A model generated the notes under the pieces. The model ran no database searches. It was not told the origin of the DNA and saw only the letters and a list, made by a program, of their open reading frames with translations. From NCBI GenBank assembly GCA_934524965.1, contig CAKSYU010000005.1, forward strand, positions 1-64,000: a stretch of 64,000 nt of DNA. Reading direction: 5' to 3'. The stretch comes from an uncultured Angelakisella sp. Its GTDB lineage: Bacteria; Bacillota; Clostridia; Oscillospirales; Ruminococcaceae. Below are positions 1,554 through 62,161 of the stretch, piece after piece. Both the position numbers and the translations under genes were made by a program. Each line of letters begins with the position of its first letter. Within the stretch, counting starts at the first letter, position 1.

Positions 1554-1636
1554 GGGGCGCAGTCCCGCCGCCCTGCGGGCGGCGAAAGCAGGCTCCGCCT
1601 GCTTTGTTCCGGCTTCGCCGGAACGGGCTGCGCCCC
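1554..1636. repeat. Four-way-junction repeat, copy A (perfect)
   Basis: The outer stem 1554-1565/1625-1636 (12 bp, one G-T) encloses three abutting perfect hairpins. These are 1566-1573/1577-1584 (8 bp, loop tgc), 1585-1593/1597-1605 (9 bp, loop tcc) and 1606-1613/1617-1624 (8 bp, loop ttc). No base is left unpaired at the junction. There is no T run, so it is not an ordinary terminator. It lies between ruvA and ruvB. Confidence 0.85.
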
Positions 1637-1681
1637 CTCTGCCCGCCCCACCGACTACTCCCAAAGAGAGGAGACTACACC

Positions 1682-2752
1682 ATGTTCGATAGAGGCAAAC
1701 AGCCAGAATACGAGATGGATATGGAAAACCGCTTTGTCGCGCCGGAGGTCACGGAAAATGACTGCGACAATGAGTTTTCGCTTCGTCCGCACACCCTCGA
1801 GGAATACATCGGGCAGGAGCAGGTCAAGGAAAACCTGTCGGTCTTTATGCAGGCGGCAAAGCTCCGCGGCGAGCCGCTGGACCATGTGCTGCTTTACGGC
1901 CCTCCCGGCTTGGGCAAGACCACCCTTTCGCAGATCATCGCGGCGGAAATGGGGGTCAATATCCGCATTACCAGTGGGCCTGCCATCGAAAAGCCCGGTG
2001 ACCTTGCCGCACTGCTTACCAACCTCAATGAAAACGATATCCTGTTCATCGATGAGATCCACCGCCTGAACCGCAGTGTGGAGGAGGTGCTGTACCCCGC
2101 CATGGAGGACTACGCCCTCGATATCATCATCGGCAAGGGCCCCAGCGCCCGTTCCATTCGCATCGATCTGCCCCGCTTCACCTTGGTGGGCGCCACCACC
2201 CGTGCCGGTCAGCTTTCCGCCCCGCTGCGGGATCGCTTCGGCGTTGTGTTCCGTCTGGAGCTTTACACGCCGGAGGAGCTTTCGCAGATCGTTACCCGCT
2301 CCGCCGGGATCCTCGGCATTCCCTGTGAAGCCGCCGGCGCCATGGAGCTTGCCCGCCGCAGCCGCGGCACCCCCCGTATCGCCAACCGCTTTCTGAAGCG
2401 GGTTCGGGACTTTGCCCAGGTGCAGGGCAGCGGCGTCATCACGCCGGATATTGCCGCCGAAGCGCTGGAACGGCTGGAGGTGGATTACCTCGGGCTGGAC
2501 CGTGTGGACCGCCGGATCCTCTCCACCATCATTCAGAACTACGCCGGAGGGCCTGTCGGCTTGGATACCCTTGCCGCCGCCGTCGGCGAGGAGAGCGTGA
2601 CGCTGGAAGATGTCTACGAGCCGTACCTCATGCAGATCGGCTTTTTGGCAAGAACGCCGCGGGGACGCTGCGTGACCCGCCTTGCCTATAACCATCTCCA
2701 TCTGGAGGCACCGGACGGCGTGCCGGACGCCCAAATGACGCTGCAATTCTGA
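1682..2752 (+). CDS. ruvB: Holliday junction branch migration helicase RuvB
   Basis: RuvB is the AAA+ hexameric motor that drives branch migration on RuvA-bound junctions. From the ATG at 1682, preceded by AGAGAGGAG, the product is 356 residues, close to the family norm. Walker A (GPPGLGKTT, residues 73-81), Walker B (LFIDEIHRL, Asp124/Glu125), the sensor/arginine-finger region around APLRDRFG, and the C-terminal winged helix ([12 protein letters not shown]) are all present. The frame is open further upstream, but that extension runs through the GC-hairpin repeat and has no ribosome-binding site, so the shorter start is preferred. Confidence 0.97.
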
Positions 2753-2755
2753 GCC

Positions 2756-3442
2756 ATGGAAAAGCGGAAAAACCGCCTGCTGCCGGTGCTATTGGCAGCG
2801 CTGGCAGTCGGGCTTGTCTTACTGGGACTGGACTATTGGAACCTTTTGCCCCATAGAACTTATACGGCGGAGCATTTCGGCATCGAAACGCTGCAAAGCC
2901 CCTTGGACGCCGACGGCGACGGTATCGATGACTATACCGATATCCTGCTGGGGGCGCGCAGGGACGCCGAAAATCACCCCAAATACGATCCCGGCTATTT
3001 TGCCGGCGGCTACCCGCCGGAGGACAGGGGCGTTTGCACCGATGTGGTGTGGCGCGCCCTTCAGAATGCGGGCTACGACCTCAAGACATTGATCGACGCC
3101 GATATTGCGGAAAATACCTCCCTTTACCTGCGGGTACAGGGGAATCCCGACCCCAACATCGACTTTCGCCGGGTGCCGAATTTGCGAGTGTTTTTTGAGC
3201 GGTACGCCGAAAGCCTGACTACCGATCCGGAGGATATCGCCGCATGGCAGCCGGGGGATATCGTGACCTTTGAGGGACGGCACATCGGCATTATCTCCGA
3301 TAAGCGGAACAGGGACGGGATACCGTACCTCATTCACAACAGCGGACAGCCCAAAAGGGAGGAGGACGCCCTGCTGCGCTGCCACCGTAACCACCCCATT
3401 TCGGGGCATTTCCGCTGGAACGGCGGAACCAAAACTGATTGA
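2756..3442 (+). CDS. Membrane-anchored DUF1287 family protein
   Basis: This 228-residue protein has one N-terminal membrane anchor (LLPVLLAALAVGLVLLGL, about residues 8-27) and an extracytoplasmic DUF1287 domain. The domain has an NlpC/P60-like papain fold, with a candidate nucleophile Cys in RGVCTDVVWRA and a His in GRHIGIIS. An EF-hand-like DADGDGIDD segment near residue 52 suggests calcium binding. Cell-wall peptide hydrolysis is a plausible role but is inferred from fold only. It starts 3 nt after the ruvB stop, so it is probably co-transcribed with ruvCAB, and glmM follows 19 nt downstream. Confidence 0.8.
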   Translation: MEKRKNRLLPVLLAALAVGLVLLGLDYWNLLPHRTYTAEHFGIETLQSPLDADGDGIDDYTDILLGARRDAENHPKYDPGYFAGGYPPEDRGVCTDVVWRALQNAGYDLKTLIDADIAENTSLYLRVQGNPDPNIDFRRVPNLRVFFERYAESLTTDPEDIAAWQPGDIVTFEGRHIGIISDKRNRDGIPYLIHNSGQPKREEDALLRCHRNHPISGHFRWNGGTKTD

Positions 3443-3461
3443 GAAAGCGAGACGAAACGAT

Positions 3462-4814
3462 ATGGGCAGACTGTTTGGAACAGACGGCATTCGCGGCATT
3501 GCCAACCGCGATCTTTCCCTTCGCCGTGCCACTGAGGTGGGTATGGCGCTGGCAGAGGTGATCCGCTCGGAGCACCCCGGCGAGCGCCCTGCCGTGGTCA
3601 TCGGACGGGATACCAGACTTTCCGGCGATATGCTGCAGTCGGCGCTTGCCGGCGGACTGATGGCGGGCGGTGCCGATGTGGTGCTGCTGGGGGTCATTCC
3701 CACGCCGGCGGTGGCTTACCTTACCGTGCAGAAAAAGGCGGCGGCGGGCGTGGTTATTTCCGCCTCCCACAACCCCTACGAGTTCAACGGCATCAAAATT
3801 TTCGGACCGGAGGGCTACAAGCTGACCGATGACGAGGAGGACGAGATCGAGCGTATGCTCCTCGATCGGGATATCCCTATGATCCCGGTGGAGCCGGAGG
3901 AGATCGGCGTCTGCACCGAGGACCACGAGGCGGCAGCGTTTTATGCCGAATATCTTGCCTCCACCGTACCGGAGCGGTTGGACGGTATGCGGGTGCTGGC
4001 GGACTGCTCTAACGGCGCCGCCTGCCGTACCGCAGGGCTGCTGTTCTCTCTCTTGGGCGCCGAGGCGACCATACTGTGCGACGCCCCCGACGGCACCAAC
4101 ATCAATCGGGCGTGCGGCAGCACCCATGTGGAGCATCTGGCAAGCCTGATGGTCGGCGGCAAATACGATTTGGCGGTTGCCTTTGACGGTGATGCCGACC
4201 GTTGCCTTGCTGTGGACGAAAAGGGCAATGTGGTCAACGGCGACCAGATGATCGCTATTTTTGCACGGCAGATGAAAGCTGAGGGCAGGCTTTCCGGCAG
4301 CGCTGCCGTGGTAACGGTGATGAGCAGCTTCGGCTTTTTCCGCTTTGCAAAGGAGAATGGGATTCACGCCGAGACCACCAAGGTGGGCGACCGTTATGTG
4401 CTGGAGAATATGCGCAAAAACGGCTACAACATCGGAGGCGAGCAGTCGGGACATATCATTTTTCGGGAATATATGCCTACCGGAGACGGAGAGCTTTCCG
4501 CCATTCAGCTGATGCGGGTAATGAAGCTGACCGGCGAGCCGCTGAGCGGGCTGGCGGGCAGAATGCCGGTAACGCCGCAGGTGCTGCTGAATGTGGAGGC
4601 AGACCGCGACATGAAAGAGGCTCTGCATGAAAGTCCCGAAATGGAAGCGCTCATCGAGGAGTGCGAGGAACGGCTGGGCGATACCGGTCGTATCCTGATC
4701 CGAGCCAGCGGCACCGAGCCGCTGATCCGCGTGATGGTGGAGGGCGAGGACGCCGACCTCATTCGGGAGCTGGCGGAGCGGCTGGCAGCGGGCTGCGAAA
4801 AGCTGCTGCGATAA
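3462..4814 (+). CDS. glmM: Phosphoglucosamine mutase GlmM
   Basis: GlmM interconverts glucosamine-6-phosphate and glucosamine-1-phosphate, the step feeding UDP-GlcNAc and peptidoglycan synthesis. The 450-residue product begins MGRLFGTDGIRG, the family signature. It has the phosphoserine loop ISASHNPYEFNG (Ser102), the metal-binding loop FDGDADR, the sugar-binding loop GGEQSGH, and the C-terminal phosphate loop RASGTEPLIRVM. The start at 3462 is set by this alignment; upstream in-frame sequence overlaps the DUF1287 gene and is not expected to be translated. Confidence 0.96.
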   Translation: MGRLFGTDGIRGIANRDLSLRRATEVGMALAEVIRSEHPGERPAVVIGRDTRLSGDMLQSALAGGLMAGGADVVLLGVIPTPAVAYLTVQKKAAAGVVISASHNPYEFNGIKIFGPEGYKLTDDEEDEIERMLLDRDIPMIPVEPEEIGVCTEDHEAAAFYAEYLASTVPERLDGMRVLADCSNGAACRTAGLLFSLLGAEATILCDAPDGTNINRACGSTHVEHLASLMVGGKYDLAVAFDGDADRCLAVDEKGNVVNGDQMIAIFARQMKAEGRLSGSAAVVTVMSSFGFFRFAKENGIHAETTKVGDRYVLENMRKNGYNIGGEQSGHIIFREYMPTGDGELSAIQLMRVMKLTGEPLSGLAGRMPVTPQVLLNVEADRDMKEALHESPEMEALIEECEERLGDTGRILIRASGTEPLIRVMVEGEDADLIRELAERLAAGCEKLLR

Positions 4815-6632: not shown

Positions 6633-6642
6633 GGGAGGAACT

Positions 6643-13647: not shown

Positions 13648-13670
13648 GGCGTGGGAACTGAGACGGGAGA

Positions 13671-13770
13671 GGGGGCGGCAGGCAGCGCGGCGCAGCCGCG
13701 CTGCCCCGCCCGCCGTAAGGCGGGCGGGGCATGGCTCCGAGCCGACAGGCGAGGAGCGCCTGCCGCCCCC
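13671..13770. repeat. Four-way-junction repeat, copy B (third arm altered)
   Basis: The outer stem 13671-13683/13758-13770 is a perfect 13 bp. Arm 1 is 13684-13691/13695-13702 (8 bp, loop gca). Arm 2 is 13703-13714/13719-13730 (12 bp, loop gtaa). Arm 3 (13734-13757) is weaker: GCTCC/GGAGC, then a 2x2 GA/GA internal loop, then GCC/GGC. Three bases before arm 3 are unpaired. Confidence 0.75.
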
Positions 13771-13808
13771 ATCGACCTGCGGCGGGCAGGGACCGGCGGG
13801 GGGAAGCC

Positions 13809-35237: not shown

Positions 35238-35411
35238 CGGCATCTATTATTATCAGTGCCTTCTCAAAGGGAAAGGAGGAACGGCAGCCCTGCCCGAAAA
35301 TGCGCTCGGGCGGGCTGCCCCGCTCCTCTGAACCAAAGCGATCCATAAGATCGGGTGGAGCTTTGCCCGCCCCGACACAAACCGCAAAACTGAATATGAG
35401 GCAGAGATCAT

Positions 35412-35580
35412 AACGGAATCAGGTGAAAGTCCTGAGCGATCTCGTCGCTGTAACGGGTAGGAACGCCCCCAAATGCCACTGTGAACAAACGGGAAGGCGG
35501 GGTGTCTCCCATGATCCGAAGCCAGAAGACGGTTCTCTGCTTCCCGCAGAATCACCACGAGGAATTGGTCGATGGAAGCA
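35412..35580 (+). promoter_or_regulatory. Cobalamin riboswitch
   Basis: The aptamer core reads GGAATCAGGTGAAAGTCC (from 35415), then GTAACGGGTAGG, then TGCCACTGTG, GGGAAGGCGGGG, and the B12 box AGCCAGAAGACGG (35520-35532). These are the expected cobalamin riboswitch elements in order. It lies upstream of a transporter operon, matching the usual B12 uptake control. A hairpin at 35584-35601 and a terminator at 35612-35643 form the expression platform. Outer limits are approximate. Confidence 0.92.
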
Positions 35581-40366: not shown

Positions 40367-40428
40367 GGTGTTTTCCTCCTTTATTTTGGTTGGGTATCGT
40401 TTCTCCCGCCCCACGCGGCTCGTCCTGC

Positions 40429-40537
40429 CGGCGAAAAAGAAATTCCGGCTGCGTCGTGCCTTGACAGGCATGCGTTCGATCCCATCGAACAACAGCCTGC
40501 CCGCGGCGCCTCCTTGCCGCCTCTTCCTTTTTCGCCG
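40429..40537. repeat. Degenerate four-way-junction repeat upstream of the amylase gene
   Basis: The outer stem 40429-40439/40527-40537 is a perfect 11 bp. Inside are hairpins at 40455-40472 (7 bp, loop tgac, one G-T), 40474-40490 (GTTCGAT/ATCGAAC, loop ccc) and 40503-40520 (5 bp, long loop), with unpaired spacers between them. The layout matches the perfect copies but is looser. Confidence 0.5.
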
Positions 40538-40799
40538 CCCTGCCGTGCCTTGGGGACGGGAGCATTTTTCGCGTAGATTATAACCGATTTATTTCGGGCT
40601 TTCAAGACGGTTTTGCAGGAAAAACGGCGGAATTTTATCCCCCATTCCCACACCATTGGGATAAATGCCTGTTAACGCGATTTGCAGGAAGTTTATGCAA
40701 AATTTATTTTCAAATGCATAATTTGCAGCATTTTCACTCAATTTATCGGATATGTCAATAAAATGCCCTGTTTTTCGGCATGTTTTTCAGTCAAAATGG

Positions 40800-40828
40800 G
40801 TGACAAGACGTTAAGAATGTGTTAATAT
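40800..40828 (+). promoter_or_regulatory. Promoter of the first tiny membrane peptide gene
   Basis: GTGACA (40800-40805) and TAATAT (40823-40828) are 17 nt apart. The transcript would have a leader of about 55 nt with a small GGGG/CCCC hairpin before the ribosome-binding site. Confidence 0.65.
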
Positions 40829-40888
40829 ACATGCACAGGGGCTCCAGACCCCACAGGACTGTAAAGAGAAATTGAGGAGGATTTTACC

Positions 40889-40972
40889 ATGATCACTACT
40901 ATCATCGCTATTGTTGCTGCTGTCGTTCTGCTGGCGCTCAACCTGATCCGTGACTACGGCAAGAAGGGCTGA
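40889..40972 (+). CDS. Tiny membrane peptide 1 (27 aa, IRDYGKKG tail)
   Basis: GAGGAGGATTTTACC precedes an ATG opening a 27-codon frame: a short N-terminus, one hydrophobic helix (about residues 4-17), then the polar tail NLIRDYGKKG. It has its own promoter (40800) and terminator (41005), so it is a complete transcription unit. The peptide shares its whole plan with two neighbours, and from LLALNLIRDYG onward it is almost identical to the second. No known family is recognised. A membrane-active regulator or type I toxin is possible. Confidence 0.75.
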   Translation: MITTIIAIVAAVVLLALNLIRDYGKKG

Positions 40973-41004
40973 TAAGCACTTCATCGCACCCCGTAAAGTA
41001 AAAG

Positions 41005-41032
41005 GAGCAGGGCACGCACCCTGTTCTTTTTT
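41005..41032 (+). terminator. Terminator of tiny peptide gene 1
   Basis: An 8-bp stem GAGCAGGG/CCCTGTTC (one G-T) is followed by six Ts. Confidence 0.8.
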
Positions 41033-41153
41033 CATGTCGGGCAGTTCCGCGGCTCATATCGCCGCCTTCTGGCGGAATATTACATCAGAGCGCGTGTTCG
41101 CGCAGGGGAACGGGGCTGCGCCCCATAGATGAAATACCAGGGAGGCTGTTTTT

Positions 41154-41240
41154 ATGGCAAGAATCTACATCATCGCCATCGTCGTCGCCATCATTCTGCT
41201 GGCGCTCAATCTGATCCGCGACTACGGCAATAAGGGTTGA
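41154..41240 (+). CDS. Tiny membrane peptide 2 (28 aa, IRDYGNKG tail)
   Basis: AGGGAGGCTGTTTTT precedes an ATG opening a 28-codon frame (MARIYIIAIVVAII, then LLALNLIRDYGNKG). It has one membrane helix and a short charged tail. The last 14 residues differ from peptide 1 at only one position, while the DNA differs at several third codon positions. This shows that selection acts on protein rather than on a recent DNA duplication. It is preceded by a GGGGctgcgCCCC hairpin and followed by a 12-bp terminator. No confident promoter was found. Confidence 0.75.
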   Translation: MARIYIIAIVVAIILLALNLIRDYGNKG

Positions 41241-41270
41241 TCTTCTCGGTTCATCGGTTACACATAGCAA

Positions 41271-41300
41271 AAAAGGCAGGGGAGCGCCCCTGCCTTTTTT
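41271..41300. terminator. Terminator of tiny peptide gene 2
   Basis: A 12-bp perfect stem AAAAGGCAGGGG/CCCCTGCCTTTT with loop agcg ends in a T run (41295-41300). The symmetry makes it bidirectional. Confidence 0.85.
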
Positions 41301-41304
41301 GTGT

Positions 41305-41318
41305 AGAACGCCAGTTCT
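41305..41318. promoter_or_regulatory. SOS-box-like palindrome before tiny peptide gene 3
   Basis: AGAACGCCAGTTCT contains GAAC-N4-GTTC, the same form as the ruvC operator, with the flanking A/T also pairing. It lies between a weak -35/-10 pair (TTGTGT 41299, CATAAA 41322) and about 12 nt before a second one (TTAACA 41329, GATATT 41353). About one chance match is expected in a window this size. Confidence 0.35.
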
Positions 41319-41433
41319 TCACATAAAGTTAACATATTGTTTTCTTTTGTGCGATATTTCTTTGTCCCCGCCGGTGCTATGATACCGTCAAACCATCGGG
41401 ACAGCCGCTATGGGCGGTCAGGGAGGCGTTTTT

Positions 41434-41526
41434 ATGAGCTCCGAACACATTTATATTCTTGCCATCGTCGCCGTTATTATCACCCTCGCGATCCGCAGGA
41501 TCCGCTGGTACGGCATAAACGGCTGA
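41434..41526 (+). CDS. Tiny membrane peptide 3 (30 aa, IRWYGING tail)
   Basis: AGGGAGGCGTTTTT, nearly identical to the site before peptide 2, precedes an ATG opening a 30-codon frame. It has SSEHIYILAIVAVIITLAI as helix and RRIRWYGING as tail. It is the most diverged of the trio but keeps the helix length, the I-R-x-Y-G core and the final Gly. It is followed by a 7-bp terminator. The long leader of 80-110 nt could carry regulation. Function is unknown. Confidence 0.72.
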   Translation: MSSEHIYILAIVAVIITLAIRRIRWYGING

Positions 41527-41559
41527 ATGATCTGAATGATACAGAAAAACGGCAAAAGC

Positions 41560-41585
41560 GGCAGGGGCGGCACCCTGCCTTTTTG
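41560..41585 (+). terminator. Terminator of tiny peptide gene 3
   Basis: A 7-bp stem GGCAGGG/CCCTGCC (41560-41566/41573-41579) is followed by five Ts. Confidence 0.75.
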
Positions 41586-41737
41586 CTGCAAAAATTTTTC
41601 TCCCTGACGGAAATTTTGCATTTTGCGGCTTTTCCTTTTATTACGGCTTTTATTTTGCCGTTCTGTGTGCTATACTATCATCGGATCACAGCGTCACAGG
41701 GCGCTGTCAACTTCATAGAAAACAAGAGGACCGTCCA

Positions 41738-44481: not shown

Positions 44482-44485
44482 TGCT

Positions 44486-44520
44486 TCCCCCCGCAGCCCA
44501 TAGCTTCGGGGGGATTTTTC
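44486..44520 (+). terminator. Terminator after rlmH
   Basis: TCCCCCC (44486-44492) pairs with GGGGGGA (44508-44514), followed by five Ts. Confidence 0.8.
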
Positions 44521-45806
44521 TGCTTTATCGCCTACCGGCGGGGCAAAATCGTTTCCCACTCCGTCCGCCTTGCGGTGCCCGAAAAAATCTTCGCGCTGCT
44601 CGCTTGCTCGATTTTTTCGACCGCTGCGGATGCTCCGCCTCGCTGCATCTGCCACAGGCAGCGCTCGGCTCTGCATCCCACTCCCCGCGACCCATAGCCT
44701 CCCCTGTGTAAGGGGAGGTGGCGAATGAAATGAGCCGGAGGGGTTGCCGGCAGAAACTATGGAAATAATCCCATCTCGCCTATCGGCGTCGCAAAGTTTT
44801 AATTAGGGCTTGGTTACTCCGCCTACCGGCGGGGTGGTACTTTTGCACCGCCTCGTCGGACGCAACCTCCGCTTCAATCGGGCAGACCCTCCGCTATGCT
44901 GCGGGCAGCCCTTTCCGCTGTGGTGCGTCCTCCTCTCCCCACAAGGTCTTACGACCTTGCGGGGACCCCAAATTCCAAAAGCGTTTTAGGGCTGCTGCCC
45001 TAAAAACCCACATCGCTTGGCTGCGCTGGATACGGATATTGTTTTTCTGCAGCAGCAGAAAAACAAATCCGTACGGCGCGCAGATGCGCTCAAAAAGTGT
45101 CTGCGACGCATTTTTATCGCCCGCGCGCTGGAGCGCGAAGGGCGAACCACCACCCCTCTCCCCTCCTCTGAGGAGGGGAACTAAGCCACAGGTGGGCTAA
45201 CACTTGCGAGTTGGCTGCGCCTTTATGTTCATAGCAGTCGGCACTTGCCGAGCGCTGAAGTAAGACAAGCAGGAAGTGGGACAGGAACCCCCTCCCCCGC
45301 TTCGGGGGAGGGGAGGGGAAGGGGGCAGATGTGCCCACAGCCCCTTGTAAGCACCGTTTAGCCCACGCTTCGGGAAGCTGCCCTTTGGCTTTCCGAGCGG
45401 GCGTTCCGGTGCGTCGGGGTCTCGGGGTGTCCCCGAGCGTGTTTTGCAATAGGGGACCCCGACGGGTCGTACGACCCGTTGGGGAAAGGAGGAACGGCGG
45501 AGCGTTGGAGGGTTGTCTATTCCATGGGAATAGCGACCTGACATGGAGCGTAGCCCGCGACGACGCGCACGAGCAAAAGGAAGTCCCCGCCGGATAGGCG
45601 TACAAGCCTGAACCTTTTATGAGGTTTTGCCCCGCCGTTAGGCGACAACAAACCATCGCCATAACCAATATCACCGATCCACTGCGATCTTCCCACCAAA
45701 AAAGCCCCCTTTCGGGAGCTTAGTTGTAAATTTATTGTAAATCTTTGTGCGAATTCAACACTTTCACTGCAAATCTGGTCGATTTCGTCCGTATTAGTGG
45801 AGGGGG
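44521..45806. other. 1.3-kb gene-free, repeat-like region
   Basis: No supported gene is present: open frames here lack ribosome-binding sites, are Pro/Arg/Ser-rich and occur on both strands. The stretch is a patchwork of short palindromes, such as CCTCCCC/GGGGAGG at 44698-44719, AAGGTC/GACCTT at 44942-44957, CCCCTCC/GGAGGGG near 45160-45180, CCTCCCCCGC/GGGGGAGG at 45288-45312, and ACGGGTCG/CGACCCGT at 45460-45479. It looks like decayed mobile or intergenic repeat material. A non-coding RNA cannot be excluded. Confidence 0.55.
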
Positions 45807-46436
45807 TCACTCCACCCCGTCCAGCAGCCGCTGCAAATTCTCCGCGAACTTCCCCAGATGGAATCCGTCCATCAGCCGGTGGTTCGCGTCAATGGAGTAG
45901 GGGAGCGTCAGCCGCCCGTCCGCTTCCCTGCGGTACTTCCCCCAAACCACCTGCGGCGTCCCGTCGTTAGGACCCTCCCGGTTGTTCAGTACACCGGTAA
46001 AGTCCAGCCACGGCAGGCAGCTCAGGTAGATCAGCCCCTCCATCTGCTCGTCCGTCTGGTCCAGCAGTCCGCTTTGCGCTGCGCTTTTTTCGGCTGTCCT
46101 CCGGCAGAATTCCGCAGGCTCCGGCGTCATTTCCACCGTCACTATGTGGAATAATTCGCTCCCCGCGCGCAGGTCGGTCAGGCTCGGGATCAGCTCCCCT
46201 ACGCGCACGGGCGCGCCGCCCGCAAGCCGGTAGTGAAAGTTTTCGATCGGCTCCATGGCACGGATGCTGTACCAGCACAGCGCATAGTAAAAGCTCACTC
46301 CGTTTTCCTTGCACCAGCGGTGCAGTCGGGTCACATTAAGCCGGAAAGTGACCCCAAGGTAGGGGAATTGCTGGGCGGAAAACAGCTTGTAGTGTTCCCG
46401 CCGGTCCCAGGTGTTCAGGTCAATGGGCTGTGCCAT
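45807..46436 (-). CDS. Chloramphenicol acetyltransferase-like protein
   Basis: This 209-residue protein has the CAT fold: the N-terminus IDLNTWDRREHYKLFSAQQFPYLGVTF, a middle SFYYALCWYSIRAME, and the catalytic His motif NHRLMDGFH near the C-terminus (HxxxDG). Type A CATs inactivate chloramphenicol by acetyl-CoA transfer, but many chromosomal relatives act on other substrates. Resistance should therefore not be assumed. It is alone on the minus strand at the edge of the repeat-like region. A perfect four-way-junction repeat lies about 75 nt upstream of its start. Confidence 0.82.
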   Translation of the reverse strand: MAQPIDLNTWDRREHYKLFSAQQFPYLGVTFRLNVTRLHRWCKENGVSFYYALCWYSIRAMEPIENFHYRLAGGAPVRVGELIPSLTDLRAGSELFHIVTVEMTPEPAEFCRRTAEKSAAQSGLLDQTDEQMEGLIYLSCLPWLDFTGVLNNREGPNDGTPQVVWGKYRREADGRLTLPYSIDANHRLMDGFHLGKFAENLQRLLDGVE

Positions 46437-46511: not shown

Positions 46512-46592
46512 CGCCCGCAGGGCGTTTTTGCTCCGCAAAAACTGACGGTCTGCGACCGTCAAGCCCGCCTGCGGCGGGCTGCCCTGCGGGCG
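46512..46592. repeat. Four-way-junction repeat, copy C (perfect)
   Basis: The outer stem 46512-46523/46581-46592 is a perfect 12 bp. Three abutting 8-bp perfect hairpins lie inside: 46524-46531/46535-46542 (loop tcc), 46543-46550/46554-46561 (loop tgc) and 46562-46569/46573-46580 (loop tgc). No base is unpaired at the junction. It lies between the CAT-like gene and nfnB. Confidence 0.9.
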
Positions 46593-46632
46593 TCTCCCCG
46601 CCGGTCTCCCGCCGCAATTTTCAGCAAAGCTT

Positions 46633-48045
46633 TTAGTCCCAGGCGGCGGCTTCGCCGCTCAGGTATTCGTCGATCTCCTTTGCCGCCTGCCGTCCGGCAC
46701 CCATTGCCAGAATGACGGTGGCGGCACCGGTCACGGCGTCGCCGCCGGCAAAAACGGCAGGCATGGTGGTGCGGCAGCTCTTTTCGGCGGTCAGCAGCCG
46801 TCCCCGCCGGTCGGCATCAAGGTGGGGGGTGGTGCGGTGCAGCAGCGGGTTCGGTGTGGTGCCGATCGCCATGATAACGGCGTCACAGGGCAGGGTGAAT
46901 TGGGCACCCGGCAGCACCTCGGGGCGGCGGCGACCGCTTTCGTCCGGTTCGCCCAGCACCATGGTGTCGCACCGTATGCCGGCGACAAAGCCGTTTTCGT
47001 CTCCCAGGATCTCCACGGGGTTGGTCAGCAGCCGGAAGGTGACGCCCTCCTCTTCGGCGTGCTCCACCTCCTCGGCTCTTGCCGGCAGCTCCTCCCGTCC
47101 CCGCCGGTAAACGATGGTCACTTCGGCGCCGCAGCGCAGGGCACAGCGCGCCGCGTCCATCGCCACATTGCCGCCGCCGACCACCACCACATGCTTGGCG
47201 GGCATTAGGGGGGTCATGGCGTCCGGCTGGGCGGCATGCATCAAGTTGATGCGGGTCAGCCATTCATTGGCGGAAAAGACGCCGCACAGCGTCTCGCCGG
47301 GAATGCCCATAAAGTTGGGCAGCCCCGCCCCGCTGCCAAGAAACACGGCGGAAAAGCCGCGGTTCAGCAGCTCCTGCACCGGCAGGGTGCGACCGATGAC
47401 GGTATCCGTTTCGAGGGTGACGCCCAGCTTTTGCAGAGCGGCGACCTCCTCGCTTAAAATGCTTTTCGGCAGGCGGAACGCCGGAATGCCGTAAGCCAGC
47501 ACGCCGCCGGCGGTGTGCAGTGCCTCAAAAACGGTGACGGAATAGCCCATTCTTGCCAGTTCGCCCGCGCAGGCAAGCCCGGCGGGACCGGAGCCGACCA
47601 CCGCCACCTTTTTGCCCTTTTCTTCGGGACGGGGCAGGAAATTCGTTTCGGGGTGGGTGCGGTGCCAATCGGCAACAAAGCGCTCCAGCCGCCCGATGGC
47701 AACGCTTTCCCCCTTTTTGCCGCGGACGCAGACCGCCTGACACTGGCTTTCCTGCGGACAGACCCTACCGCAGACGGCGGGCAGGGTGTTATCTGCCGAA
47801 AGGATCTGCCAGGCGGCGGCAAAGTCGCCCTCGGCGACCCTGGCGATAAACTGCGGGATATGCACCCCGACGGGGCAGCCGGAACGGCAGGGGGCGTTGG
47901 GGCAATCGAGGCAGCGGCGCGCCTCCCCGATGGCGGTATTTTCATCATAGCCCAGTGCTACCTCCTCAAAATTGCAGCGGCGGCAGTCAGGGGACTGCAC
48001 CGGCATGGGGGCGGCGGCAGGGGAGAGGTTAAGATCTTTTTTCAC
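46633..48045 (-). CDS. nfnB: NfnB/GltA-type NAD(P)H-dependent flavoprotein
   Basis: This 470-residue protein has an N-terminal Fe-S domain (CRRCNFEEVALGYDENTAIGEARRCLDCPNAPCRSGCPVGVHIP) and two nucleotide-binding domains (VAVVGSGPAGLACAGELARMGYSVTVFE, VVVVGGGNVAMDAARCAL). It matches the small glutamate synthase subunit family, which includes NfnB. Because the nfnA partner lies directly upstream, NfnB of the electron-bifurcating ferredoxin:NADP transhydrogenase is the better call. The GTG start at 48045 has AGAGGAA upstream; the open frame continues further but through a hairpin repeat. A glutamate synthase large subunit is not nearby. Confidence 0.85.
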   Translation of the reverse strand: MKKDLNLSPAAAPMPVQSPDCRRCNFEEVALGYDENTAIGEARRCLDCPNAPCRSGCPVGVHIPQFIARVAEGDFAAAWQILSADNTLPAVCGRVCPQESQCQAVCVRGKKGESVAIGRLERFVADWHRTHPETNFLPRPEEKGKKVAVVGSGPAGLACAGELARMGYSVTVFEALHTAGGVLAYGIPAFRLPKSILSEEVAALQKLGVTLETDTVIGRTLPVQELLNRGFSAVFLGSGAGLPNFMGIPGETLCGVFSANEWLTRINLMHAAQPDAMTPLMPAKHVVVVGGGNVAMDAARCALRCGAEVTIVYRRGREELPARAEEVEHAEEEGVTFRLLTNPVEILGDENGFVAGIRCDTMVLGEPDESGRRRPEVLPGAQFTLPCDAVIMAIGTTPNPLLHRTTPHLDADRRGRLLTAEKSCRTTMPAVFAGGDAVTGAATVILAMGAGRQAAKEIDEYLSGEAAAWD

Positions 48046-48096
48046 GGGAATTCCTCTTTTCGGGGTAAAATAGGAGATACGGAAAGACTGGGGAGA

Positions 48097-48184
48097 ACCG
48101 CCCGAAGGGCGTTTCGGCGCAGCCGAAACCGGCGGTCGCAGACCGCCGAAGCCGTCCCGCGGGACGGCTTGCCCTTCGGGCGGT
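48097..48184. repeat. Four-way-junction repeat, copy D (perfect)
   Basis: The outer stem 48097-48110/48171-48184 is a perfect 14 bp. Inner hairpins are 48111-48118/48122-48129 (8 bp, loop gca), 48130-48137/48141-48148 (8 bp, loop gca) and 48149-48157/48162-48170 (9 bp, loop cgcg). No base is unpaired at the junction. It lies inside the nfnA-nfnB operon. Confidence 0.9.
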
Positions 48185-48217: not shown

Positions 48218-49063
48218 TTATTTCGGCTCCAGCCCCAGAAGGCGGCAGGCAGCCTCGCGGCTTTGCTGCTCCTGCGGGCGGTAAATTCTGCCGCGGCGGA
48301 TCGCTTCGGCAAAATCCACCTGATGCCCGTCGAATTCCGGTCCGTCCACACAGGCAAAGCGGACCTCGCCGCCGACGGTAAGGCGGCAGCAGCCGCACAT
48401 ACCGGTGCCGTCGATCATAATGGGGTTCATGCTGACGGTGCAGGGGGTCTGATAACGGGCGGTGAGGTCGCTGACCGCTTTCATCATGGGCAGCGGACCG
48501 ATGGCAAACACCATATCGAACCGTTCACCCTCCTGTAAAAGCCGCTCCAGCGCGCCGGTGACAAAGCCCTTTTCGCCGGCGGTGCCGTCATCGCTGCACA
48601 GCAGGAAGCGGTCGCTGGCTTCGGTCATCTCCTGCTCCAGAATAACCTGCGGCTTACCGCGAAAGCCGGCAATGGCGGTGACACGGCAGCCCTGACGGTG
48701 CAGGGCGGCGGCGGTGGGCAGGGCGATGGCGCAGCCCAGTCCTCCGCCGATGACGGCGGCATTGCGGTAACCCTCGATGTGGCTGGGACACCCCAAGGGT
48801 CCCGCAAAGGTGGGGAGGCTGTCGCCCACCGAAAGGCTGTCCAGCAGCAGGGTGGTGCCGCCGACGACCTGATAGACGATGGTGACGGTGCCGGCTGCGG
48901 GGTCAAAATCCGAGATGGTGAGGGGGATACGCTCGGCGTCCTCGGTGGGACGCAGAATGATGAACTGACCGGCAGCGGCGTGGGTGGCGACTTCCGGCGC
49001 CGAGACGACCATGCGGCTGATGCCTGCCGCAAGGGTTTCCTTGCGGAGAATGGGTGCTTTCAT
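48218..49063 (-). CDS. nfnA: NfnA-type ferredoxin-NADP reductase subunit
   Basis: This 281-residue subunit is of the NfnA/SudB family. It has an FAD-binding domain (GQFIILRPTEDAERIPLTISD), an NAD-binding domain (NAAVIGGGLGCAIALPTAAAL) and a C-terminal [2Fe-2S] site (DGTGMCGCCRLTV and FACVDGPEFDGHQVDF). With NfnB it should form the bifurcating transhydrogenase that balances NADH, NADPH and reduced ferredoxin in anaerobes. It is upstream of nfnB on the minus strand; the 172-nt gap contains a perfect four-way-junction repeat. Confidence 0.87.
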   Translation of the reverse strand: MKAPILRKETLAAGISRMVVSAPEVATHAAAGQFIILRPTEDAERIPLTISDFDPAAGTVTIVYQVVGGTTLLLDSLSVGDSLPTFAGPLGCPSHIEGYRNAAVIGGGLGCAIALPTAAALHRQGCRVTAIAGFRGKPQVILEQEMTEASDRFLLCSDDGTAGEKGFVTGALERLLQEGERFDMVFAIGPLPMMKAVSDLTARYQTPCTVSMNPIMIDGTGMCGCCRLTVGGEVRFACVDGPEFDGHQVDFAEAIRRGRIYRPQEQQSREAACRLLGLEPK

Positions 49064-49287: not shown

Positions 49288-49307
49288 AGTAGGTGCGGGA
49301 GGCAGGT

Positions 49308-49396
49308 TCGGGCGGCAGCCCGACCGACCCGCAGGGTCGGTCAGCGCCCCCCAAGGGGGGCGTGCGGCGGCTTTGCCGCCGCGGGCTGCCGCCCGA
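49308..49396. repeat. Four-way-junction repeat, copy E
   Basis: The outer stem 49308-49321/49383-49396 is a perfect 14 bp. Inner hairpins are 49322-49330/49334-49342 (9 bp, loop gca), 49345-49351/49356-49362 (7-8 bp, loop caag) and 49364-49371/49375-49382 (8 bp, loop ttt). Only A49343 is clearly unpaired. It lies between the 40-aa gene and the lipid kinase gene. Confidence 0.85.
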
Positions 49397-55730: not shown

Positions 55731-56732
55731 ATGGCAAAATTTGAAGGACAGGAAAGACGGATGCCCGGCATCAATGCCTGCCTGAAAGAGTACGGAATGA
55801 ATACCCTGGAAGATGCCCGTGACCTCGCTCTGGCACACGGCATCAATGTGGAGGAAATTGTAAAGGGCGTACAGCCCATTGCCTTTGATAACGCTGTTTG
55901 GGCTTATACGCTGGGCGTGGCGCTGGCACTGAAAAAAGGCGTAAAGAGTGCCGCCGAAGCCAGTGAGATGATCGGCGTGGGCTTGCAGGCATTCTGCGTA
56001 CCCGGCTCCGTTGCCGAGCAGCGTCAGGTGGGTCTGGGTCACGGCAACCTGGGCGCCATGCTGCTGCGCGATGAGACCAAGTGCTTCTGCTTCCTGGCGG
56101 GGCATGAGTCCTTTGCGGCGGCGGAGGGTGCCATCGGCATTGCCCGCAACGCCAACAAAGCCCGCAAGGAGCCGCTGCGCGTGATCCTGAACGGTTTGGG
56201 CAAGGACGCTGCCTATATCATCAGCCGCATCAACGGCTTTACCTATGTAGAGACCGACTTTGACTTTGCCACCGGCGAGGTGAAGGTCGTGCGAGAGATC
56301 GCCTTCGGCGAGGGTGAGCGCGCCAAGATCAAGTGCTACGGCTGCAACGATGTTCTGGAGGGTGTAGCCATTATGAAACTGGAGAAGGTCGATGTTTCCA
56401 TCACCGGCAACTCCACCAACCCCACCCGCTTCCAGCACCCCGTTGCCGGCACCTACAAGAAGTGGTGCTATGAGAACGGCGTCAAGTATTTCTCGGTGGC
56501 AAGCGGCGGCGGCACCGGCCGTACCCTGCACCCCGATAACATGGCGGCGGGTCCCGCCTCCTACGGCCTGACCGACACGATGGGCCGTATGCACGGCGAC
56601 GCCCAGTTTGCCGGCTCCTCCTCCGTGCCCGCTCACGTAGAGATGATGGGTCTGATCGGCATGGGCAACAACCCCATGGTGGGCGCGACGGTAGCGTGCG
56701 CTGTGGCGGCTTATCAGGCGCTGAACAAGTAA
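55731..56732 (+). CDS. GGGtGRT family protein
   Basis: This 333-residue protein carries the name-giving SGGGTGRTLHPDN motif (around residues 262-274). It belongs to an uncharacterised family found mainly in anaerobic Firmicutes. Other conserved-looking features are VGLGHGNLGAMLLRDETKCFCFLAGHESFAAAEG, IKCYGCND and the C-terminal GNNPMVGATVACAVAA. Several cysteines could hold a cluster delivered by the adjacent NifU-like protein. Codon use and the strong promoter suggest high expression. No enzymatic function is known to me. Confidence 0.85.
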   Translation: MAKFEGQERRMPGINACLKEYGMNTLEDARDLALAHGINVEEIVKGVQPIAFDNAVWAYTLGVALALKKGVKSAAEASEMIGVGLQAFCVPGSVAEQRQVGLGHGNLGAMLLRDETKCFCFLAGHESFAAAEGAIGIARNANKARKEPLRVILNGLGKDAAYIISRINGFTYVETDFDFATGEVKVVREIAFGEGERAKIKCYGCNDVLEGVAIMKLEKVDVSITGNSTNPTRFQHPVAGTYKKWCYENGVKYFSVASGGGTGRTLHPDNMAAGPASYGLTDTMGRMHGDAQFAGSSSVPAHVEMMGLIGMGNNPMVGATVACAVAAYQALNK

Positions 56733-56794: not shown

Positions 56795-56855
56795 CCCCGA
56801 TGGCTTTGGCGGGGAAGATGTGGTGGAATAAGGGCAGAGACCAGGGAAGGGGAAG

Positions 56856-56942
56856 CCGCCCGCAGGGCGCTCCGGCGCAGCCGGAGCAGGGAGCGGCGCA
56901 GCCGCTCCCTGCCCGCCCGTGGGCGGGCTGCCCTGCGGGCGG
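56856..56942. repeat. Four-way-junction repeat, copy F
   Basis: The outer stem 56856-56868/56930-56942 is a perfect 13 bp. Inner hairpins are 56869-56876/56880-56887 (8 bp, loop gca), 56888-56897/56901-56910 (10 bp, loop gca) and 56911-56917/56922-56928 (7-8 bp, loop cgtg). Only T56929 is unpaired at the junction. Confidence 0.9.
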
Positions 56943-57270
56943 TGCCTGCGGTGGGCAGGAGCCAGTCGAGGGAGGTGCCCCGATGAAAAGTAAGGCAGAG
57001 GGAAAAATCCCGCGTGAAGTGTGAGCGGAGCGGAAAATGGCTTGCGAAAACCAGCCAAGGCAAGGACTGCGATTTTTATGGCATGGAAAAGCAGGACAGA
57101 GACGAAAAATCCGCACAAAGTACGAGTGGTACGGAAAAGCGGAACGCTTCGCAACCGGTGGTTGACAGATTTGATGGTCGGATTGGTGGTGCGCAACCGT
57201 GTCGAATGGTAGGATAACGGCACAGGGACGGACAGAAGATGCCGCCCGGAATAAAGGAGGGTATGACAGA
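56943..57270. other. Leader region of the XRE regulator gene, no gene seen
   Basis: Short open frames occur but lack ribosome-binding sites. A TTGACA lies near 57162 without a good -10. The GGAGGG site of the next gene is at 57256-57261. I see no structured RNA with confidence. Confidence 0.5.
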
Positions 57271-58272: not shown

Positions 58273-58281
58273 CAGCATTGG

Positions 58282-59193: not shown

Positions 59194-59220
59194 ATGAAGG
59201 TACGAGTAAGGGCGCGAGAG

Positions 59221-59250
59221 TTGACAAAGGGGCGGCGGCTGGGCTATAAT
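59221..59250 (+). promoter_or_regulatory. Promoter of the CPBP protease gene
   Basis: Consensus TTGACA (59221-59226) and consensus TATAAT (59245-59250) are separated by 18 nt. Both hexamers are perfect, so expression is probably constitutive. Confidence 0.8.
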
Positions 59251-59295
59251 CAGCTATCATGATGTCGGCGGATTTTTGCCGGAGAAGGAGAACCC

Positions 59296-60270
59296 ATGTC
59301 GGATTTTTACCCCTTTGCACCGCGGGAAAGTGAGCTGCAGGAATACAGAAAAGACGCACGCCGATGCTTCAGCCGCATCGGGTGGGCATGCTTTGCCATG
59401 ATGGGGGCGGCGCAGGTGGGTGCGCTGCTGCTCATGATGGGGTGCCAGTGGCTTGTCATACGGGGCAGCCGGGCGATGATTGCTTTTATCCAGAGCGACT
59501 GGTTCCAGTGGGTCATTACCGATGCGGCGAACTATGGGCTGGGGCTGCCGTTGCTGCTGCTGATCCTGCGTCCGCTGCCGAAGTCTGCCGCCCTGCCCCG
59601 CCGGAGGGTGACGGGTAAGCAGTTTGGTGCGCTGGCGCTGGTAAGCTATGCGGTGGTGTATGTTTCCAACCTTATCGGATTGGGCGTGAACGCCGCCATA
59701 AGCGCCCTGCGGGGGCAGCAGGCGGGCGATCCGCTGCAGAATATGGTATCGGGCACCAACCCGTGGATCATCTTCCTATTCGGTGTGGTGATCGCGCCGC
59801 TGATCGAGGAATGGATCTTCCGGAACCTGATCCTGCGGCGGCTGGCGCCGTGGGGGGAGCCGGTGGCGATCTTCGGCTCGGCATTCCTGTTCGGGCTGTT
59901 CCACGGCAACTTCGGGCAGTTCTTCTATGCCTTTGCGCTGGGCGCGGTATTTGCCTATGTAGCGCTGCGCAGCGGCGGTATCCGCTACACGGTGGCACTG
60001 CACTTTTTGGTGAATTTCTTTGGTATGACCGTTTCGCAGGCGGTAAGCGAAAGCATGCTGCTGACGGCGATCTACGGCTGGCTGGTGCTGACGATGGTGG
60101 TCGCGGGCGCGATGATCCTGTGGCGGCACCGCGGCAAGATAAAGCTGCGGGAGGGGACAAGTCCCATTCCCGCGGAGGAAAAGCGGGGCTTGTTCCTGGG
60201 CAATGTCGGCATGATCGCCATGATGTCGCTCGGCGGGATCTTGATGCTGTATGTGGCGTTCTGGAGCTGA
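59296..60270 (+). CDS. CPBP family intramembrane metalloprotease
   Basis: This 324-residue integral membrane protease is of the CAAX prenyl protease/bacteriocin-processing (CPBP, Abi) family. It has about eight helices. The catalytic motifs are EEWIFRNLILRR (Glu-Glu and Arg), FGLFHGNFGQFFYA (His) and LHFLVNFFGM (His, Asn). In bacteria such proteins process or confer immunity to peptides, or cleave membrane proteins; no bacteriocin genes are adjacent. It is monocistronic, with a consensus promoter and a terminator. Confidence 0.9.
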   Translation: MSDFYPFAPRESELQEYRKDARRCFSRIGWACFAMMGAAQVGALLLMMGCQWLVIRGSRAMIAFIQSDWFQWVITDAANYGLGLPLLLLILRPLPKSAALPRRRVTGKQFGALALVSYAVVYVSNLIGLGVNAAISALRGQQAGDPLQNMVSGTNPWIIFLFGVVIAPLIEEWIFRNLILRRLAPWGEPVAIFGSAFLFGLFHGNFGQFFYAFALGAVFAYVALRSGGIRYTVALHFLVNFFGMTVSQAVSESMLLTAIYGWLVLTMVVAGAMILWRHRGKIKLREGTSPIPAEEKRGLFLGNVGMIAMMSLGGILMLYVAFWS

Positions 60271-60280
60271 ATATAAAAGC

Positions 60281-60306
60281 AAAAGCTGCCTGCGGGCGGC
60301 TTTTTT
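60281..60306 (+). terminator. Terminator of the CPBP protease gene
   Basis: A 10-bp stem AAAAGCTGCC/GGGCGGC-TTTT type (60281-60290/60295-60304, one T-G) with loop tgcg is followed by Ts. Confidence 0.8.
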
Positions 60307-60404
60307 GCTGCGTAAAATTCCTTGTCAATTTGCACCAATCCACCGGGGAAAGTTTGTGAAAGATGTGGCAAGCCTACGAAAATTAAAAATCCGCCAAGAA
60401 CCCC

Positions 60405-60433
60405 TTGCAGGCGATAGGAATAAGTGATAAACT
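60405..60433 (+). promoter_or_regulatory. Promoter of the guanine riboswitch transcript
   Basis: TTGCAG (60405-60410) and TAAACT (60428-60433) are 17 nt apart, about 26 nt upstream of the aptamer. Confidence 0.65.
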
Positions 60434-60458
60434 GCAAATGTAAACAAAATATGACCAA

Positions 60459-60530
60459 AGCTCATATATGCCCGATAATATGGTTCGGGCGTTTCTACGC
60501 CGGTCCCGCAAAGGCCGGCACTATGGGTGT
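60459..60530 (+). promoter_or_regulatory. Guanine-type purine riboswitch
   Basis: The aptamer has P1 CTCATA (60461) with TATGGG (60522), P2 with the conserved GATAATATGG loop, the J2-3 core GTTTCTAC (60491) and a P3 GCCGG/CCGGC stem. The specificity base just before TATGGG is C (60521), indicating guanine/hypoxanthine rather than adenine. The core pyrimidines are standard, arguing against a 2'-deoxyguanosine variant. It precedes a purine-type NCS2 permease. Confidence 0.93.
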
Positions 60531-60531
60531 T

Positions 60532-60576
60532 CCGATCCGTTCCGCCACAGCGGGAGGGGTTGGCTTTGCTTTTTGT
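60532..60576 (+). terminator. Riboswitch-controlled terminator
   Basis: CCGATCC (60532-60538) pairs with GGGTTGG (60557-60563) over an inner TCCGC/GCGGGA-type stem and is followed by CTTTGCTTTTTG. Ligand binding should allow this hairpin to form and shut off the permease. Confidence 0.75.
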
Positions 60577-60670
60577 TGACGGCTGGCTGGGACACTCATT
60601 CTGAAATGAGACCGGTCGGCATTTTGTTTTGTCCGCTTCAGTATTTTTTATAAGTAAAAGGAGCAATACT

Positions 60671-62005
60671 ATGGAAAAGCTGTTTAAGCTGAAAGCGCAC
60701 GGCACCGATGTGAAAACTGAGATCCGTGCAGGCATTACCACCTTCTTTGCGATGGCGTATATCATTTTCGTCAACTCCAACTATCTTTCCATGACCGGCA
60801 TGAACAAGACCGGCGTTATGGTAGCGACCTGCATTTCTGCTGCCATCGGCTGCCTGCTCACTGCGTTCCTTGCCAATGTGCCCTTCTGTCAGGCACCCGG
60901 CATGGGTCTCAACACCTTCTTCACCTTTACCGTATGCTTCGGCATGGGCTATACCTGGGAGCAGGCACTGGCAATCGTATTTATCTCCGGCCTGCTGTTC
61001 CTCGTCGTGACCGTCAGCCCCCTGCGCAAGAAGATCATTGAGGCGATCCCCGCTTCCCTGAAGGCCGCTATTTCCGCCGGTATCGGCTTCTTTATTGCCC
61101 TTATCGGTATGTTCAATGTCAATATCGTTACCGCCTTCGGTTCCGGCGAGGCCGGCGCCTACACCGATATGGGCAGCATCACCAAGGGTGCGGCTCTGCT
61201 GGCCCTCATCGGTTTGGCGATCACCGCTATTCTGGTTGCTTACCGCGTAAAGGGTGCTATCTTTATCGGCATCATCGCTACTACCCTCATTGGCTTCCTT
61301 ATGGGTCAGACCACCATTCCCGAGAGCTTTACCGTAGCCGGAATTGGCGAGGCATTTGACGAGGTCGCCCTTAAGCTGGACTTCCCCGGCGCTCTTTCTG
61401 CCGGCGGCGTTGTTCCTTTCCTCACCGCTATCATCACCTTTGCCATCTGCGACTGCTTTGATACCGTCGGTACCCTGCTGGGTACCGCAGGCAACGCCGG
61501 CATGCTGGACGAGAACGGCAACTTCCCCGGCGGTGACCGTGCCCTGATCGCTGATGCCATTGCCACCTGCACCGGTGCTTTGATCGGTACCTCCACCGTT
61601 ACCACCTTTGTTGAGTCCTCCACCGGCATCGAGGACGGCGGCCGTACCGGCTTGACCTCCGTGACCACCGGCATTCTGTTCGCACTGGCTGTTATTCTGG
61701 CTCCCGTGGCGGGCATCGTTCCCTCCGCTGCCACCGCTCCCGCACTCATCATCGTCGGTGTATTCATGATGAAGGGCGTGCTGAAGATCGACTGGTCCGA
61801 TATGGAGACTGCGATCCCCTGCTTCCTGACCATTGCCATGATGCCCTTTGCCTACTCCATTGCGGACGGCATCGGCTTCGGCATTATCTCCTACACCCTC
61901 ATCAAGCTGGCGCGCGGCAAAGCGAAAGAGGTTCCCGTACTGATGTACATTCTCTCCGTTCTGTTTATCCTCAGCTATGTGCTGCTGGCGACCACCGCTG
62001 CCTGA
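60671..62005 (+). CDS. NCS2 family permease, guanine/hypoxanthine type (AzgA-like)
   Basis: This 444-residue permease has about twelve to fourteen spans and resembles the AzgA branch of NCS2: FKLKAHGTDVKTEIRAGITTFFAMAYIIFVN at the start, then FCQAPGMGLNTFFTFTVC, then TFAICDCFDTVGTLLGTAGNAGML, and STVTTFVESSTGIEDGGRTGLTSV. The start at 60671 has AAAGGAGC upstream. The guanine riboswitch in its leader supports guanine or hypoxanthine as substrate. It is a single-gene unit with its own terminator. Confidence 0.92.
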   Translation: MEKLFKLKAHGTDVKTEIRAGITTFFAMAYIIFVNSNYLSMTGMNKTGVMVATCISAAIGCLLTAFLANVPFCQAPGMGLNTFFTFTVCFGMGYTWEQALAIVFISGLLFLVVTVSPLRKKIIEAIPASLKAAISAGIGFFIALIGMFNVNIVTAFGSGEAGAYTDMGSITKGAALLALIGLAITAILVAYRVKGAIFIGIIATTLIGFLMGQTTIPESFTVAGIGEAFDEVALKLDFPGALSAGGVVPFLTAIITFAICDCFDTVGTLLGTAGNAGMLDENGNFPGGDRALIADAIATCTGALIGTSTVTTFVESSTGIEDGGRTGLTSVTTGILFALAVILAPVAGIVPSAATAPALIIVGVFMMKGVLKIDWSDMETAIPCFLTIAMMPFAYSIADGIGFGIISYTLIKLARGKAKEVPVLMYILSVLFILSYVLLATTAA

Positions 62006-62025
62006 TAAGGCAAAACAAATTTCCG

Positions 62026-62058
62026 ACCGCTCCGGCTTTTATAGTCGGGGCGGTTTTT
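62026..62058 (+). terminator. Terminator of the NCS2 permease gene
   Basis: A 9-bp stem ACCGCTCCG/CGGGGCGGT (62026-62034/62046-62054, one T-G) is followed by five Ts. Confidence 0.8.
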
Positions 62059-62082
62059 GTATGGGGAGGGAGAGCTTGCCGG

Positions 62083-62161
62083 CGGCGCAGCCACGCGCCC
62101 TGCGGGCGCGTTCCCGCGGCAAAGCCGCGGGAGCCGGACTTTTAGTCCGGCGGCTGCGCCG
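62083..62161. repeat. Four-way-junction repeat, copy G (perfect)
   Basis: The outer stem 62083-62092/62152-62161 is a perfect 10 bp. Three abutting perfect hairpins lie inside: 62093-62100/62104-62111 (8 bp, loop tgc), 62112-62120/62124-62132 (9 bp, loop aaa) and 62133-62140/62144-62151 (8 bp, loop ttt). No base is unpaired at the junction. It follows the permease terminator and precedes the DUF3343 gene. Confidence 0.9.

Follow-up and report, generated by a model that had tools for sequence, protein, structure and literature searches.

REP elements, among the closest described systems, are 20–40 bp repeated palindromes (PMC3733652) that carry a GT(A/G)G head beside the palindrome (PMC2817692), and hairpin-forming repeats are also described from organelles, as mitochondrial double-hairpin elements and as the repetitive hairpin-forming elements of sponges (PMC2800124, PMC4478555, PMC7218506). 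At the level of single hairpins, Hirao and colleagues described extraordinary stability in DNA mini-hairpins that combine a GNA or GNNA loop with two or more G-C pairs (PMC4686876), while template switching has been shown to make perfect stems, and to repair existing ones, in a single event (PMC8794818). A survey of hairpins in 118,019 genomes concerns single inverted repeats, multi-arm elements being unmentioned in the text consulted (PMC13155455); what is said here of all these papers is likewise limited to their consulted portions. Here we describe seven intergenic elements, A to G, of 79–100 nt each, in a 64,000-nt stretch of an uncultured Angelakisella sp. ('the window'; contig CAKSYU010000005.1, positions 1 to 64,000). 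In a literature search of open-licence papers, none of those listed described a bacterial repeat of their layout, in which an outer stem encloses three hairpins at a four-way junction. The reading we prefer, at about an even chance, is that these are dispersed, oriented intergenic DNA elements, each made of a GGGA(A)G head and a cloverleaf, kept by shape and not by sequence, which would act, be rewritten and spread as DNA.

Results

Seven elements share a fold and differ in sequence

Predicted folds of all seven stretches consist of an outer stem with three hairpins (Table 1), which bears out the fold described in a first-pass annotation of the window, and the folding energies computed for RNA are those of very stable structures (−64 to −98 kcal/mol). 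The annotation had also held that the seven share one exact architecture. This stands for six copies (A and C–G) and fails for B, a degenerate seventh with a 2×2 internal loop in its third arm and three unpaired bases at the junction. A finder working on shape only (stems of at least 6 bp, outer stem of at least 7 bp, small gaps) confirmed junctions free of unpaired bases in A, C, D and G, as had been noted before, and counted three such bases in E and one in F; the middle arm of E reaches 8 bp if one G-T pair is counted. Across the window this finder recovered six of the seven elements, did not recover B, and gave no further three-arm structure, with two weak two-arm structures elsewhere. Against these six in 64 kb, 150 first-order (Markov) shuffled windows, together 9.6 Mb, contained two loose elements with at least three arms.

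The stems differ between copies while pairing is retained, as the annotation had claimed. On the alignment of a covariance model, which was started from two copies and rebuilt from 13 rows (both strands of six copies and the + strand of B), standard pairs fill 99.3% of 461 cells, and in 34 of 36 pairs both sides have changed; this alignment had been fitted to the structure and amounts in effect to seven sequences, not 13. This level of pairing was reached by none of 500 shuffles, and sliding the partners by 1–3 columns left 38–46% paired. MAFFT alignments, which mix arms, were left out of the pairing analysis. The model recovers all seven copies, B being the weakest at 35 bits on the + strand and 31 on the − strand with the next other place at 12, although its own rows, B + among them, match by construction. 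At gathering score, no Rfam 15 family matches any element, in keeping with the earlier remark that no named repeat of this layout is known, and the purine and cobalamin riboswitches are the only Rfam matches in the window.

Two features at the edges of the elements were seen beside this core. In the folds of A, D, E and G, short complementary stretches resume, as judged by eye, beyond the perfect outer stem after an internal loop or bulge; it looks as though a longer stem had decayed around a corrected core, the perfect part. A near-identical extra hairpin, CCTGCGGYGGGCAGG, lies to the right of B (13776–13790) and of F (56945–56959); this 3′ hairpin may be part of the element in some copies.

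An orthologous copy shows compensatory changes

DNA of a close relative could be deduced at the ruvA-ruvB spacer, where element A lies. Two database RuvA proteins, P0022 (300 aa) and P0110 (283 aa), are each 87% identical to RuvA of the window and extend beyond the usual end. One DNA read in two frames accounts for both tails: a run of 68 residues fits 64 DNA sequences differing at five positions. The next-longest overlap is 9 residues, disregarding the same register shifted by one residue and 14 residues that the tails share in one frame. An insertion or deletion between the two was ruled out because both fit a single DNA over the 68 residues. The last 14 residues of the tail match the window spacer before ruvB in one frame, one residue excepted. 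A search for further read-through proteins returned the query alone. Where the DNA itself is lacking, such read-through or frameshifted proteins from a database, taken in two frames, are useful in that they can fix non-coding DNA almost uniquely.

The folding energy of the deduced 205-nt spacer is −151.7 kcal/mol if the ambiguous bases are chosen most favourably and −137.6 kcal/mol if they are chosen least favourably (z = −7.9 for the former against mononucleotide shuffles). With the most favourable choice the spacer contains two three-arm elements, an ortholog of A and, probably, a second element beside it. Four inner ambiguous bases allow 16 combinations, in which the finder returned both elements in four, one in eight and none in four, the two-element outcome requiring an initial C in two arginine codons. 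In the ortholog this ambiguity affects arm 3 but neither arm 1 nor arm 2; in the second element it touches neither arm 1, nor arm 3, nor the outer stem. When A and its ortholog were aligned by hand from the loops outward, 16 of the 24 arm pairs were unchanged, eight were changed on both sides (one now T-G) and none was broken, provided that the ambiguous arm-3 base is C; if that base is A, one pair breaks. Compensatory change between orthologous copies, which the first-pass annotation had made one of the points on which its proposal should stand or fall, was therefore found at ruvA-ruvB, at one site and in DNA deduced from proteins.

Pairing is nearly free of G-T

G-T pairs make up two of the 301 pairs in eight copies, namely the seven of the window and one from a separate genome (G014, see below), whereas in the window's purine and cobalamin riboswitches, folded alike, they make up 10 of 75. 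Under selection on RNA, G-U pairs are tolerated. The near absence of G-T together with exact complementarity points to copying or selection at the level of DNA, and both the exact pairing and its upkeep look to be matters of DNA. The paired changes may stem from selection for structure or from correction by template switching, which yields them too.

Most arm tips carry GNA-class loops and one flank an apparent head

Among triloop hairpins with stems of at least 6 bp, 13 of 16 inside the elements have GNA or TNC loops, compared with one of 30 outside them in the window (Fisher p 7e-8 for these counts; one of 22 outside under a stricter loop rule). The share of this class in 2.03 Mb of relatives' genome DNA is 144 of 798 at stems of at least 6 bp and 29 of 113 at stems of at least 8 bp. 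With tetraloops included, the GNA/GNNA class occurs, on one or the other strand, in 15 of the 21 arms, and within every copy having at least two such loops (A, B, C, D and F) they are confined to one strand. The recurrence of loops, mostly closed by C-G, had been noticed before and is upheld. The choice between DNA and RNA, which the first-pass annotation left undecided, now leans towards DNA through the scarcity of G-T and the GNA/TNC loops. In C, D, F and G the outer stem can form a further C-GNA-G mini-hairpin from its 5′ strand. Inspection by eye adds A, where this hairpin includes a G-T pair, and E, where its loop is GGCA, and one strand could thus alternatively adopt a row of five hairpins.

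An oriented GGGA(A)G head seems to stand on one side of the elements. The motif occurs within 28 nt on the left in all eight copies and on the right in none, against a background of 6.4% per 28-nt stretch and strand in intergenic DNA. For this count A–F were oriented by their GNA strand, independently of the motif, and G and the G014 copy by the motif itself. In G the two signals conflict, the single GNA/TNC loop pointing to the − strand and the head to the + strand. A tie between element polarity and GC skew was considered and dropped, as the skew follows gene direction and codon use.

Distribution beyond the window

A strict shape scan (stems of at least 7 bp, outer stem of at least 8 bp) of 313 loci, 4.30 Mb of genomes and viral contigs with some overlap, yielded one distinct place outside the window, in G014 (L273, L274). 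At looser settings three-arm folds turned up here and there, with either shorter arms or a larger number of unpaired bases. The covariance model, the search proposed by the earlier annotation, matched all seven window copies; of genomes it matched one of 20 (G014) with up to 150 candidates scored in each, and none of 295 of the order with up to 15 candidates per genome scored, a weak negative at that depth.

RuvA of G014 is 51% identical to that of the window. The G014 copy, which is perfect, lies 26 bp after a + strand open reading frame (ORF), and a permease-like ORF on the − strand remains open through the element, which places the copy between two convergent genes or else at the 3′ end of the permease-like ORF; the element may sit at, or have replaced, the end of the permease-like gene. 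G014 also contains further recurring palindromes of conserved sequence, CTTCCTTTCTT...AAGAAAGGAAG, TAAGGGGCGGAGCCCCTTA and CGGACTCCC...GGGAGTCCG, several of them near contig ends (L277, L279, L283, L285, L286, L289, L291, L292 and L293).

Protein-anchored searches of genomes did not extend to the genus of the window. For RuvA, none matched among 297 at E 1e-90, 394 at 1e-70 and 400 at 1e-66, two of 89 matched at 49–51% identity (1e-54), and two of 4 and 19 of 26 at 1e-45, with a best identity of 56%. Within one family, 32 of 120 genomes passed the threshold used with a RuvB 74–79% identical, and no RuvB among the matches listed exceeded 79%. The protein collection includes RuvA clusters at 97, 91 and 84% identity, one of the last occurring on 962 contigs. 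In viral contigs the outer-stem pattern met seven stretches and the arm pattern 36, none with a window-like element; two weak three-arm folds with arms of 6–7 bp were found at L112 and L115. Viral contigs yielded no RuvA, and a ClpC-like protein at most 47% identical at the 80 loci kept. Plasmids, queried with window positions 1–24000, gave no relevant match. It is thus in this window that the family is known to be dense, and a close relative probably carries two copies at a single site.

Genomic placement

By our own rough gene call, all seven elements are intergenic, five between tandem and two between convergent genes (Table 1). The five divergent gaps contain none; they account for 2.6 of 10.0 kb of gap length, and the absence is not significant. 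Of the copies between tandem genes, C, F and G (the last as oriented by its head) read in sense with them and A and D in antisense, a mixture not expected of a function in the transcript. On the + strand no T run directly follows any of the seven on the 3′ side, as judged by eye, and the earlier statement that the elements are not ordinary terminators holds to that extent. One copy lies within the ruvC-ruvA-ruvB cluster, whose products process four-way junctions, which may be coincidence. The CatA-like acetyltransferase gene beside C (−) does not reach the curated chloramphenicol acetyltransferase cut-off. Several ordinary hairpins occur in two long gaps, 40367–41737 and 44482–45806, where no gene was called.

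Table 1. Elements, heads, neighbouring genes and riboswitches (window coordinates unless stated; stems and arms in bp)
Feature	Position	Strand	Outer stem; arms	Loops	Head (position, strand, form)	Neighbours or source
Element A	1554..1636	−	12 (one G-T); 8/9/8	TGC, TCC, TTC on +; GNA on −	1658..1662, −, GGGAG on GNA strand, 21 nt from stem (weakest case)	ruvA 898-1515 +; gene called as ruvB 1682-2752 +; ruvC precedes
Element B (degenerate)	13671..13770	+	two clean arms; third arm with internal loop	GCA, GTAA; third arm GACA	13665..13670, +, GGGAGA, abutting	convergent genes
Element C	46512..46592	−	12; 8/8/8	TCC, TGC, TGC on +	46593..46599, −, GGGGAGA, abutting	two − genes: 46633-48045, CatA-like 45807-46436
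Element D	48097..48184	+	14; 8/8/9	GCA, GCA, CGCG	48090..48096, +, GGGGAGA, abutting	48218-49063 (−), 46633-48045 (−)
Element E	49308..49396	+	14; 9/7/8	GCA, CAAG, TTT	49297..49302, +, GGGAGG, 5 nt off	40-aa ORF (+), lipid kinase gene (−), convergent
Element F	56856..56942	+	13; 8/10/7	GCA, GCA, CGTG	56844..56855, +, GGGAAGGGGAAG, abutting	downstream of GGGtGRT-protein gene 55761-56732 +
Element G	62083..62161	undecided	10; 8/9/8	TGC, AAA, TTT on +	62063..62074, +, GGGGAGGGAGAG, 8 nt off	downstream of permease gene 60671-62005 +
A ortholog (relative's first element)			10, one mismatch; 9/8/8			deduced ruvA-ruvB spacer
Relative's probable second element			11; 9/8/7			deduced ruvA-ruvB spacer
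G014 copy	L274 10027-10107		10; 10/8/8, no unpaired junction base			
Purine riboswitch	60442-60543					Rfam; upstream of permease-family gene at 60671
Cobalamin riboswitch	35388-35552					Rfam

Discussion

On the reading we prefer, the elements would act as DNA. A single strand, most likely the lagging-strand template, would fold into a cloverleaf with GNA-capped arms, a step with indirect support. Template switching inside each arm would copy one side onto the other, letting sequence drift while pairing stays perfect, and this fits both the paired changes and the near absence of G-T. The elements could have spread as small non-autonomous units whose head and shape are recognised by a putative enzyme, a view suggested by how they are dispersed and oriented and by the second element that the relative's spacer probably contains. 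A more specific proposition, that the family is inherited and propagated as a DNA shape, with oriented head and cloverleaf recognised in single-stranded DNA and each arm recopied from its own other side, which would leave stem sequences free to change and give copies a common architecture with little common sequence, we put forward tentatively and would not bet on.

Several points weigh against the preferred reading. First, the G-T comparison uses two comparators only, with predicted folds. Second, the head motif was picked post hoc, after inspection, and the two copies oriented by it (G and the G014 copy) point the opposite way by a single GNA/TNC loop each, a disagreement that argues against coupling loop polarity strictly to the head. 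Third, six of the 21 arms end in loops of another kind (CGCG, CAAG, CGTG, TTT twice and AAA), and DNA folding energies of the two strands lie less than 2 kcal/mol apart, with no strand preference under the parameters used. Fourth, no second copy was seen in about 530 kb of G014, and the high density is known for one window. Lastly, no empty site was seen, movement being our inference, and no mobilising enzyme was found: Y1_Tnp (PF01797) was absent from the one genome searched (G014, of unstated completeness and with one known copy), and the control search matched five of 14 control genomes.

An RNA element is an unlikely alternative. Here a cloverleaf in the transcript would block exonucleases, or separate the expression of genes within an operon, and be kept by selection on RNA pairing. 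Every one of the seven copies is faced by a gene end, A, C and D lie between tandem genes with 33–75 bp on either side, and the RNA folds are very stable, all of which would suit such a role. B and E, however, lie between convergent genes, and inspection by eye places a hairpin resembling a terminator, T run included, ahead of B, F and G. The occurrence of both orientations relative to transcription and the virtual lack of G-U speak against an RNA role as well.

Somewhat more doubtful still is that the hairpins are a passive mutational product, kept perfect by template switching once formed, with neither function nor spread. Creation and repair of stems in single events, as described in the consulted part of PMC8794818, would account for the exact pairing and the few G-T pairs. 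By itself, such a process leaves unexplained why six copies have three arms of 7–10 bp within an outer stem, why this layout is common to the relative's spacer and to a separate genome, why GNA loops and a head motif accompany it, and why it is so rare elsewhere (one distinct place in 4.30 Mb at strict settings). That these are classical REP/BIME elements, moved by the Y1 tyrosine transposase associated with REPs, is the least probable of these explanations and a poor one, since, for all the likeness of a short head beside a GC-rich palindrome, oriented and intergenic after gene ends (PMC2817692, PMC3733652, as far as consulted), the head is not GT(A/G)G, the structure is one four-way junction of 79–100 nt and not a 20–40 bp hairpin, the copies have no sequence in common, and the Y1_Tnp search of G014 was negative.

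If the elements are indeed DNA kept by shape, the consequences are general. Dispersed repeats are mostly found by sequence similarity, and a family kept by shape would escape such searches and could be commoner than known. The elements also offer a natural, countable test of template switching versus selection in keeping hairpins perfect. Should an enzyme recognise the folded DNA, its target would be a four-way junction and not a sequence. In organelle hairpin elements the hairpins stand in line, and are not known as three arms within an outer stem.

Comparison with known systems

By the tests run, the elements are not REP. GTAG or GTGG abuts the stem in no copy on either side of the flanks inspected, the flank of A reading GGGAGTAG with GGGAG 21 nt away, and at 79–100 nt, with stems changed on both sides at nearly every pair, they are no repeated short palindrome. 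Judged as candidate MITEs, which would have terminal inverted repeats, a target-site duplication and a partner transposase, the elements have an inverted repeat in their outer stem, and the flanks inspected by eye show no evident duplication. Another system of folded single-strand sites is the integron attC site, recognised by an integron integrase and carrying R/L boxes. With the REP/BIME palindromes associated with RAYT they share an intergenic position, palindromic structure, orientation and a short unpaired head on one side, and they differ in the GGGA(A)G form of that head, in the three-armed four-way junction and in a sequence that changes from copy to copy (PMC2817692, PMC3733652, in the parts consulted). 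Like the hairpin elements of organelle genomes, they are compact, hairpin-forming and dispersed in intergenic DNA, whereas the elements of the consulted reports belong to organelles (PMC2800124, PMC4478555, PMC7218506). The mechanism laid out in the consulted text of PMC8794818 explains double substitutions that preserve pairing, as seen here; it is a mechanism of mutation and not an element of fixed architecture. The loop class found at most arm tips is that of the DNA mini-hairpins of PMC4686876, which, in the portion consulted, are a biophysical motif in short DNA fragments, unlike the genomic repeat family described here.

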